From a virus, in the IMG/VR virus record IMGVR_UViG_3300020454_000925, positions 1-21,620 of that record: a stretch of DNA of 21,620 nucleotides; one strand, written 5' to 3'. Each line of letters opens with the position of its first letter. The stretch's first letter is position 1. Made by a program: the position numbers and the translations under genes. Positions 250-11,100 of this stretch are shown here, piece by piece. A model generated the notes under the pieces. That model made no database searches. It worked only from the letters and a program-made list of their open reading frames with translations, and was not told where the DNA came from.

Positions 250-309
250 GGTTAACTGATGAGGCTTTAATAGCCGAAACACCGACCGCCAATTGGCGGT
301 GTCTTAACC
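250..309 (+). ncRNA. Type I hammerhead ribozyme motif
   Basis: All elements of the hammerhead core are present in order. Stem I is GGTTAA (250-255) with TTAACC (304-309), six perfect pairs. The catalytic box CTGATGA is 256-262. Stem II is GGCT/AGCC (263-266/272-275) with loop TTAAT. GAA is 276-278. Stem III is ACACCG/CGGTGT (279-284/297-302), and can be extended by CC/GG around loop AATT with a four-base bulge (285-288). The cleavage triplet GTC is 301-303, with C17 at 303, so cleavage is predicted between 303 and 304. Stems II and III are capped and stem I is open, which makes it type I. The predicted 3' product starts 22 nt before the ATG at 326. Loop I/loop II tertiary contacts cannot be judged by eye. 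Activity is inferred from the complete core, whose chance occurrence is very unlikely. Confidence 0.88.
285..300 (+). promoter_or_regulatory. Hairpin that competes with hammerhead stem III
   Basis: ACCGCC (285-290) pairs perfectly with GGCGGT (295-300) around loop AATT. The same 3' bases 297-300 are needed by ACACCG (279-284) for stem III of the hammerhead, so the two folds exclude each other. It is the positional equivalent of the GCCC/GGGC hairpins in front of the two later leader copies. A switch is an inference. Confidence 0.5.
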
Positions 310-325: not shown

Positions 326-523
326 ATGAAAATTAAATTACCAACTATAAATATCGAGACTGAAGAATACAAAGCAACAATCGATGCGATGATGAATTAC
401 TACGGATACACTAGAGCAGAGGCAAAGGCTTGGCTGATAGCTGATCTAACCGCAAGGGCTGAGAGGCATTGTGAGCATCTCCTAGAGGAGTTCAAGGAGT
501 ACGGATACGCAACCACCGAATAA
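326..523 (+). CDS. Small phage protein of unknown function (65 aa)
   Basis: Encodes 65 residues, mixed acidic and basic, with a predicted helical middle (DAMMNYYGYTRAEAKAWLIADL) that reads like a small all-alpha early protein. I do not recognise a family. The start is the ATG at 326, in the A/T-rich context ATTATATTATG with no Shine-Dalgarno sequence. It is the first cistron behind the hammerhead motif, so self-cleavage would leave it on an mRNA with a 22-nt leader and a 5'-hydroxyl end. The next cistron begins 49 nt downstream behind a second copy of the same leader. Probably an early host-interaction gene, on position only. Confidence 0.75.
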   Translation: MKIKLPTINIETEEYKATIDAMMNYYGYTRAEAKAWLIADLTARAERHCEHLLEEFKEYGYATTE

Positions 524-542: not shown

Positions 543-572
543 GGTGTCTTAACCAATAACCAATATAAAATT
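540..572 (+). repeat. Leader repeat, copy 2 (hammerhead 3' arm without the catalytic strand)
   Basis: Repeats GGCGGTGTCTTAACCAATAA exactly, followed by CCAATATAAAATT and the ATG at 573. It contains the GTC triplet (546-548) and TTAACC (549-554) but has no CTGATGA box or GGTTAA strand nearby, so it cannot form a local hammerhead. It could pair with the catalytic strand at 250-284, in cis over a long distance or in trans. Confidence 0.8.
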
Positions 573-800: not shown

Positions 801-828
801 GGTGTCTTAACCAATAAACAATTATAAA
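798..828 (+). repeat. Leader repeat, copy 3 (hammerhead 3' arm without the catalytic strand)
   Basis: Again GGCGGTGTCTTAACCAATAA, then ACAATTATAAA before the ATG at 829. The GTC triplet is 804-806 and TTAACC is 807-812. As in copy 2, the catalytic half of the hammerhead is missing locally. Confidence 0.8.
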
Positions 829-8107: not shown

Positions 8108-11100
8108 ATAGGTTCAATAACTCCTCGATGTCAATCGGGGCTTCTTGGCTCTCCGTTATCTTTCTGTACCTTTTCTTTTCTTGTGTCTCAATACCCGGCC
8201 CGTATCTGTAGTACCACAAATCAGAGAACGGCAATAATGTTACTAATCTATTTGGATCAGCCGGAGAGTCCTCGTTATTGATGGCGGCCAGTTGACCAAT
8301 AATATCCATTGGAACTTGAAATGCTACGGGTAATGCATAATTCAATAACATTTCTTCTGGCCTATCTGCCAGTTTACTTACATTGTATTTACTTACGCCA
8401 GCGATTCGGAACAAACTATTCCAGAAGTAATCATTCTTGTACATATCACGACCAGCCATTAAATCCTTTAGTGCATCAATAGGAACCCCAATCATCTGAA
8501 AGAATATCATAAGGAAAAAGAAATCTTTAGCGGCTTTCATTTTATCTAAATAGGTAGCTTTACTCCCGGGTGCGAATGTACTAAAGTATCTTTGGAAGAC
8601 AAAGTTCATTTGCTTTATGATAAAACTTTTCATTAAGATAAGAGTCTTAGTGTTCGGGTTTTGTTTAATCATTAAGGGTAACTCAAGTTCACTAATGGGC
8701 TGAGTCTCCGACAACTTTGTAAATAAAAACAATCTAACTTCTGCGGAATTAGGGGTGTTATTACGCAAGTCATATATGATCTTGTCTTTGTAACTAGGCA
8801 TACGGAAATCTATTTCTGCTAAAAGTTTCTTATGAGCCCCGCTATTTTTTGATTTCATAGCCGCTCTCCTATACCTATTGTAATTAACAGTAAGGGTACT
8901 CTCCTTAATGAACTGATCCATTCTTTTGAACCCAGTTAAAGTTAATCCCCTATCTACTGTTCTTCTTATTACTCCAGTATCCGGATCATAATCAGCACTA
9001 AACATTTCTTTATTGATACCTAACTCTGCTAGGGTAACTTTCTTACCAAACATAGCACTAAGAACTGGGAGTATACCATTGTCTAATGTAGCAAATGCTA
9101 ACTCATACGCATTAGATAATGTACTGGTTGGCTCAACCATTAATATACCATACATAAATGAATTCAATCCACCTAAGAAATCATTACCCGGACTGGAGGA
9201 CGGGGCAATCATTGTATTAACCACGTGAGGAGCTTCTTGAAATAATCTTCTTTGATCTATATTAGGATCTTGTGACAACTCCACAAGGATTTGACCAAAG
9301 GTACCAATGGGTTTGTTTTGAGATATTAACTCTTGTATTTTATCTATATTATATTTAAGGCCCCCGCCCTTACCCATTAATTTAGTTGTCTCTATCTCAC
9401 GATAAGATGAATCAACATATTTCTTAAACGATTCTGCCGGGGTAAAGTAAAACTTTACTGCATCCTTATCTATGAACTCAATCTTACGTTGCTCCTCTTT
9501 ACTAAAATTCATTCGGTTGTTTTTGTACCTCTGAGATAATATGTATTGATTGAATTTAAATGCGGCATAAGGTGTATCTATATTTATTTCTATGCCATCC
9601 TTTTCGCTTTCGGATTTAAGGTATGATTTAAAATCAGTCGCTACAGTCTTGCCTAAGTATTCCATATAAGCACTCATATGCCTTATAAAGCGAGGGAAGT
9701 AATCAAACCTATAATTTATTTCCCTTTCAACTGACTTACTTTCATTATAAATTGTATCAAAGATAGGCCTAATAGATAATTGAAACTCATTATATAATCC
9801 ATATTTTCTTAGAAGCCTATCTCTTTCAGCTATGATTGCCTTGGACTCATCGCTATCCTTTGTCTCTTGTGTCGGACTGTACATTAAGTGACGGTTTAAT
9901 TTATCCACATCTTCCTTGTTGGATATTCCGCTTATCTTTTTAAAGAAAGGTTCGCCTAACTTTTTAGCGTCAAAAGTTTTTTTCATTATAGCTTGTTGCC
10001 AATTTTGCATAACCTCATATAACTTGGGACTAAGTTCTTGAAGAATCCTAGATGGCGTATAAAAAATATCCTTTAACTTTTCTTTATCAAAGAGTGCTCT
10101 CTTTTCCTTCTCAAGTTTCTCTAGGCTTTCAGCGGTGGGGTCTACTAACTTATCTGTAGTAAGTTGTGTTTCTCCTTTAGCTTCTTGGGATGCGATTATT
10201 GCTGCATTAGTCTGAGCTTGGTAAGGTACCTTGGCTTCCGGATCCGCACTTCTTATTAGTGAAGCTGTATCCCTTATAAGTAAAGCAACCTCATCGTTTG
10301 TCTGTATGTCACTCTTGAGTGCACGTACTATGGTTGAGTGAACCGCACGTAGTAATGACTTCACTAATTCAAAAGCTTTACCTTGTAGCATAGTCGACTC
10401 AGTAGTACGGCCATATAAAAGCTGTTGAGTAATGAATCTTGTATACTCAGCTCCAGCATCTGTTGCACCCAACTGTTCTCCATATACTTCATTGAGCCTA
10501 TCTCTTTGTTGAGGGGTAAGTGCTTGCCCTATTCTTTCCATTGACCTAATAAAAGCTTCCTTTGGACTCAAGTCCTTGGACTTTTTATTAATCACTTGGT
10601 GCATTGCTGCGTGAATAACTTCTTCTCGGAGTGCAGCTTCGGCTCCCTCTTTGCCACGAGCTGACAACAAAGCCGGGTCGTATTCAATTGTCATTGTCTC
10701 GTAATTATACTGAGCGTCCCGACCTTTGTCTAAATTAATTTTCTCAACAATTGGTATGTTGAGTTTACCGGATAATGTTTTAATTTTATTAACAACGGAT
10801 CCTATAACTTGTAGTTCCGTTGTTGTTAAATTCTTAGAAGTAGATGCACCTACTGTACCCACCGGCATAGAAGTCTCAGCACTTCTTAGTGCTTCATTCA
10901 TACGCTTGTCTGTTTTTACTATATCTAAAATGCTAGTAGAGTCAGAGAATGTACCTACACCTTTACCTTTTATTACTATAGGATAACTCAAGTGTTCTTC
11001 TGTGCCCAACTCTTGTGCTGTAGTAGGGCCGATCTGTTCCTTGTCGAACTGAACTGCACCAACTATCTCACCCCTATTTACGTTATCAAAGGCGGGGTCA

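Follow-up and report, generated by a model that had tools for sequence, protein, structure and literature searches.

Separate, ribozyme-free substrate strands exactly complementary to the arms of a hammerhead ribozyme, as a natural trans-acting ribozyme would demand, lie downstream of that hammerhead in the early operon of a marine phage. The hammerhead occupies positions 250–309 on the plus strand of the window, by which we mean the whole 21,620-nucleotide stretch of viral DNA analysed here, and its core and structure identify it as a real type I hammerhead. From the sequences, we consider it rather probable that the element is a natural hammerhead acting in trans (or in cis over a long distance) to process several intercistronic sites. 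A fuller proposal has, in our judgement, about an even chance of being right: a multiple-turnover trans hammerhead, in which the leader frees itself, cleaves a 12-nt sequence found in front of several early genes and sets the 5' and 3' ends of the operon's messages, in an arrangement that arose more than once in phages.

The leader hammerhead and its class

All hammerhead core positions are present within 250–309 in the right order, and an A-U pair closes stem III, as an earlier note on this DNA had claimed. The element begins with the stem I 5' arm GGTTAA (250–255), assigned by covariance-model alignment, followed by the conserved core strand CTGATGA (256–262; sequence, relatives and covariance model), stem II (GGCT/AGCC, 263–275, with arms at 263–266 and 272–275 and a 5-nt loop, TTAAT) and the core GAA (276–278; sequence and covariance model). 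The stem III 5' arm ACACC (279–283) leads into a GACC linker or bulge and a small hairpin, GCC-AATT-GGC (284–297), and the cis substrate strand GGTGTC^TTAACC (298–309) ends the element, with cleavage predicted after C303. Stem II shows the compensated variants GCAT/ATGC and GGGT/ACCC in relatives, while GACC is kept in all members of the window's family. The first early gene (326–523, plus strand) starts with an ATG at 326, giving the predicted 22-nt leader after the cut; its 65-aa product had no match in Pfam or PHROG.

The three perfect stems of 6, 4 and 6 pairs that had been claimed are correct for stem I, which is open with 6 bp, and for stem II with 4 bp. Stem III is really the 5-bp ACACC/GGTGT, extendable to 8 bp around the 4-nt GACC insertion; the supposed third stem, a perfect 6-bp hairpin ACCGCC/GGCGGT (285–290/295–300), belongs to a fold that competes with stem III. 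ViennaRNA slightly prefers this competing hairpin (-20.3 vs -18.1 kcal/mol for the hammerhead), which is also present in the minimum-energy fold, and the model suggests that it could cap the free 5' product. The folding z is -3.1.

A covariance model, R1, built from 47 hammerheads that all come from other, unrelated phages, picks out 250–309 at 65.8 bits (E = 9.6e-19), the second-best match in the window reaching 12.2 bits. Relatives were gathered by core-pattern searches of viral contigs. Outside the window's family, a matching cis substrate strand followed 20/20 viral matches to the first pattern (1/480 with shuffled downstream sequence) and 112/120 matches to the second (21/2400 shuffled); four genome-contig matches (L040–L043) had no cis substrate and were set aside as chance matches. 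Compensatory changes occur in all three stems across the 47 phage sequences, with 99.9% of cells paired, in rows preselected for cis pairing; the comparison of substrate strands with shuffles is therefore the fair test. Together with the R1 score, these counts rule out a chance hammerhead. Among 173 distinct hammerheads, the median distance from cleavage site to ATG is 24 nt, and 168 stand before an ATG-initiated frame of at least 30 codons, 147 of them within 40 nt. The core bases, the covariation in three stems and this median uphold the earlier view that the 5' leader of this phage early operon contains a type I hammerhead and, on comparative grounds, place it in a widespread class of phage hammerheads shortly before start codons. 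Sequence, structure and covariation likewise make self-cleavage after C303 very likely.

The Rfam search that had been proposed as a check returned no match in the window at gathering thresholds, and the sub-threshold matches were to RAGATH-1-hammerhead (RF03152; 28.3 bits, with a cut-off at 56.3) and Hammerhead_3 (20.7 bits, with a cut-off at 48.5). Membership in RAGATH-1-hammerhead, Hammerhead_1, II, 3, HH_9 and HH_10 was rejected, as the cut-off was not reached, and the element is thus outside every Rfam hammerhead family at cut-off. Ten further sampled hammerhead-bearing loci likewise gave no Rfam match at cut-off. RAGATH-1, the closest Rfam model, resembles the window's element in its stem III loop (GCC-AATA-GGC in relatives) and in an A-rich stretch before stem I; besides its score, the window's family differs in the 4-nt stem III insertion and the solo substrate sites. 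It appears that present Rfam cut-offs miss a common class of hammerheads in phage leaders.

Other hammerhead arrangements were observed in the same searches. Some phages have a series of complete type I hammerheads, each preceding a different gene and in many cases overlapping the stop codon of the gene upstream: L025 and L168 (6 each), L032 (5), L039 (5) and L167 (4), and also L029, L031, L197 and others. Cultured Pelagibacter phages have an unannotated hammerhead-like element upstream of MarR-like and integrase genes, at about 2962 in L055 (HTVC019P), 2664 in L056 (HTVC131P), 2437 in L061 (HTVC304P), 2303 in L062 (HTVC022P) and 12011 in L057 (Jormungand); the cores include the variants CTGACGA and CTGAAGA, and that of Jormungand is canonical. 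A sister phage, L116, has a type II hammerhead at 8732–8791 (Rfam Hammerhead_II, 45.1 bits).

Substrate sites lacking a ribozyme strand

The sequence GGTGTCTTAACCAATAA is repeated exactly at 543 and 801, each time without a ribozyme strand and each time before the next gene. Solo site 1 (GGTGTC^TTAACC, 543–554, plus strand), with a predicted trans cleavage after C548, precedes the gene at 573 and is adjoined by the hairpin GCCCGCAAGGGC (531–542). Solo site 2 (the same 12 nt, 801–812, plus strand; predicted trans cleavage after C806) precedes the ATGs at 829 and 864 and is adjoined by the hairpin GCCCTAACGGGC (789–800). Both ribozyme arms are complementary to these sites as well as to the cis strand, ACACC pairing with GGTGT. 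A scan of the window with up to 3 mismatches found 4 substrate-strand matches against 0.13 expected. The sites were rejected as degenerate hammerheads, with no upstream core and no R1 match at 543 or 801. The hairpins at 531 and 789 were rejected as intrinsic terminators, having no T-run; the sole terminator-like site within 1–1400 is on the minus strand and elsewhere.

Two further features of this region were noted. A 12-codon frame (829–867, ATG at 829) follows solo site 2, its end overlapping the ATG at 864, and is possibly a leader peptide coupled to that ATG. Between early genes, 1270–1324 is a strong inverted repeat, CTCCTTAAGG...CTCCTTAAGG (z = -5.3), and related CTCCTTAAGGA boxes recur in L116–L119.

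In the window's family of related marine phage contigs, one complete hammerhead heads the rightward early operon, with 0–5 solo sites downstream per contig; where a contig extends upstream, the leftward genes stop about 1 kb short of the hammerhead. The 14 hammerhead-bearing contigs, window included, hold 37 solo copies of GGTGTCTTAACC, and the two contigs without solo sites end directly after the hammerhead. A fifteenth contig, truncated on the left shortly before its first site, brings 2 more (39 in total). There were 0 mismatches over the 39 sites and no one-mismatch solo copy in the loci examined, and whole records held no antisense 12-mer, so that the sites are in the operon sense only (reversed-pattern control, 0). 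Because the substrate recurs without a ribozyme at 543, at 801 and in relatives, the element more likely serves several genes. A role in mRNA maturation or 5'-end control had been suggested earlier; as the control of a single 5' end by a stand-alone leader element, that reading is too narrow.

Across 32 distinct solo contexts, the 12 ribozyme-complementary positions and the next A are invariant (2.0 bits), with 5' flanks below 1 bit and 3' flanks at or below 1.46 bits. The position H is C at every site of the family and the blocking G at none. A hairpin directly adjoins 30/32 sites, formed by several unrelated sequences, and adjoining hairpins are below -5 kcal/mol at 84% of sites compared with 8% of random positions. 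Judged by its sequence, the conserved box has the make-up required by a trans hammerhead whose arms are GGUUAA and ACACC.

The strongest rival is cutting by the leader hammerhead in cis only, with GGTGTCTTAACC, its 5' hairpin and the A/T-rich leader forming a separate, overlapping element that could be a promoter or an RNase site or could act in translation start or stability. We regard this as unlikely, but it would account for the conservation, and the invariant C at H and invariant A after the box are also expected of a box with another function. Boxes before genes are moreover common here, since sister phages hold other repeated intergenic elements in the same slots. However, a separate element does not explain why the borders of the conserved block are those of the ribozyme arms (plus one A), nor why box and hammerhead are present or absent together. 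In 679 kb from 73 sister loci, all of them exonuclease relatives not belonging to the window's family, the same scan found no GGTGTHTTAACC and no hammerhead of the window's kind, and the complete genome of C75C1, the closest named phage by its 738-aa virion protein, has no such hammerhead and no repeated box. A promoter in particular was rejected, with sigma-70-like sites at shuffle level (5 found vs 4.0 expected).

In sister phages without the window's hammerhead, we observed a RAGATH-24 RNA (RF03049, function unknown) at 524–632 in L112, 5661–5800 in L085 and 7109–7249 in L116. In L112 and L085 it stands just before a repeated intergenic element consisting of a hairpin, TTTTTGGGT and a second hairpin; elements of this type precede several early genes, with repeats in L100, L098, L112 and L085. 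By analogy, RAGATH-24 and these repeats could be another system of one RNA and many sites.

Apparent joint changes of arms and sites in other phages

The ribozyme arms are identical in every member of the window's family found, which leaves no concerted arm change within it, and arm-site change was therefore sought in other phages. Among 158 other hammerhead cores in 112 loci, 4 exact solo partners before an ATG were found against 0.18 expected with swapped arms (L197 merged with L032 in this count). In L032, L037 and L197, the ribozyme arms are AUUAAU/ACUAU and the solo site ATAGT[C/A]ATTAAT stands in the first leader, whereas a homologous ribozyme in L249 has the arms UUAAGU/ACUAU and the solo site ATAGTAACTTAA. 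Arm and site thus differ jointly, AUUAAU with ATTAAT in the former and UUAAGU with ACTTAA in the latter. The 28.8-kb record of L249 holds the new substrate sequence exactly twice, in cis and solo, and the old ATTAAT-type sequence is absent from the locus. The ribozyme arm of L197 has a better partner in the solo site than in its own cis strand, where two of the pairs are G-U. The L178 arm ACACG mispairs with the cis strand and matches an upstream solo site, CGTGTCTTAACC, forming 7 pairs with TCCGTGTC.

The apparent concerted change amounts to few cases, one lineage pair (L249 vs L032/L037/L197) and L178; the joint difference in the pair and the better fit of the L178 arm to its solo site would nevertheless be unexpected if the box were a separate element. 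For the L032 and L249 pairs, the best fold from RNAcofold was not the complete hammerhead, and L224, with a stem II like that of L178, has no solo partner in its 78-kb record.

These phages also bear on a second rival, in which duplication of the 5' leader from gene to gene also spread substrate halves, now surviving as functionless relics. Outside the arms, too, solo and cis leaders in L249, L178 and L032 have bases in common (TTAACCATAAAACACACAC in L178 is an example), so leader copying contributed in L249 and L178. As a general account we find duplication improbable, as in the window's family hairpins and leaders have fully diverged while the 12-mer is unchanged in all copies. Moreover, the stem III half of the L178 solo site fits the ribozyme arm and not the cis copy, and in L249 and L197 the solo site is not identical to the cis strand.

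Some related observations stand apart from the count. L167 has a possible extra solo case at 982 (GATGTCTTAACC, one G-U pair), which was left out. Apparent solo matches in L021, L166, L172, L175 and L231 were rejected, being really type III hammerheads; these five and L038 have type III hammerheads directly before start codons. A conserved leader block, ACCACTATAATCTCARGATGAATGCAGTG, lies immediately 5' of the solo site in L032 (3461–3490), L037 (minus strand, 12654) and L197 (minus strand, 1258), and its GCAT/ATGC and CACT/AGTG could form a pseudoknot.

Proposed processing of the early transcript

In the proposed trans or long-range mechanism, the leader RNA of the early operon would fold as a type I hammerhead and cut itself after C303. 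The substrate-binding arms GGUUAA and ACACC would remain on the 5' fragment once released, or on an uncut leader that acts over a distance, and could pair with the identical 12-nt GGUGUC^UUAACC at 543 and 801 and direct cutting there too. The polycistronic early transcript would then be divided into shorter mRNAs, each product having a 3' end formed by a hairpin and GGUGUC and a 5' end with a short A/U-rich leader before the AUG. The 4-nt stem III insertion may permit the competing 6-bp hairpin to hold the cut 3' end, freeing the ACACC arm and favouring turnover.

Folded by RNAcofold without constraints, the 5' product and either of the two window sites are predicted to form a complete hammerhead with a binding energy of -8.0 kcal/mol, in which the competing hairpin caps the product and the substrate's own hairpin lies beside stem III. 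The cis arrangement can therefore be read as a ribozyme strand, a short linker and a first substrate, with additional substrates placed before later genes. An intermolecular duplex of 11 bp at about -8 kcal/mol is modest by this model, which speaks against the proposal, and in the trans complex we identified no tertiary contact between loop I and loop II. We infer cis cleavage, trans cleavage, multiple turnover, tertiary contacts in the trans complex and a benefit to the phage alike.

Pairing could also act by itself, the released 5' fragment binding downstream leaders as an antisense-like regulator near start codons, with no cutting. The arms do match perfectly sequences about 10–28 nt before AUGs. 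The predicted complex, however, has precisely the form of a hammerhead whose cleavage position is occupied by a permitted C, the blocking G occurs at no site of the family, and the hairpins adjoin stem III and not the start codon, all of which makes pairing without cutting highly improbable.

Processing by one hammerhead has partial counterparts among known systems. Clustered hammerheads flank prophage genes and have been proposed to divide long phage transcripts into mRNAs the length of an operon or a gene (Perreault et al. 2011, PMC3088659); the same study describes, in haloviruses HF1/HF2, a hammerhead variant that precedes the start codon of a helicase by 13 nt. These bacterial and phage type I hammerheads have the same core, three stems and topology as the window's, but their clusters have a complete ribozyme per site, whereas the window's family has one ribozyme and several ribozyme-free substrate strands. 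The discontinuous hammerhead of mammalian Clec2 3' UTRs is a type III ribozyme acting in cis, with one ribozyme and one substrate strand far apart in one mRNA and a helix I insert of 150–1500 nt (as cited in PMC6155905). The window's family instead has one ribozyme strand and several substrates up to 1.8 kb away, and a hammerhead of the Clec2 type was rejected for the window, whose hammerhead belongs to type I, stands in a 5' leader with all its parts in cis and has extra sites.

Engineered trans-cleaving hammerheads share the design, two arms around CUGAUGA-stem II-GAA cutting GUC, but they are man-made, whereas the window's arrangement is natural and conserved in phages. Trans cutting is an engineered use of hammerheads, the natural ones being known as self-cutting RNAs. 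To our knowledge, no natural hammerhead cuts a whole message into single-gene pieces as one ribozyme. RNase P RNA is a natural ribozyme that acts on several substrates in trans, as is proposed for the window's hammerhead; it is an unrelated RNA with unrelated chemistry and reads the shape of tRNA, in contrast to a 12-nt sequence here. It has been called the sole natural trans-acting ribozyme in a 2026 paper (PMC13254310). Our literature search, which covered few subscription papers, found no natural trans hammerhead in phages and none with several ribozyme-free substrates. If the proposal is true, a conserved phage operon would contain an RNA cutter that is both natural and programmable, and two short RNAs would allow a direct test of the long-standing question of what purpose phage hammerheads serve.
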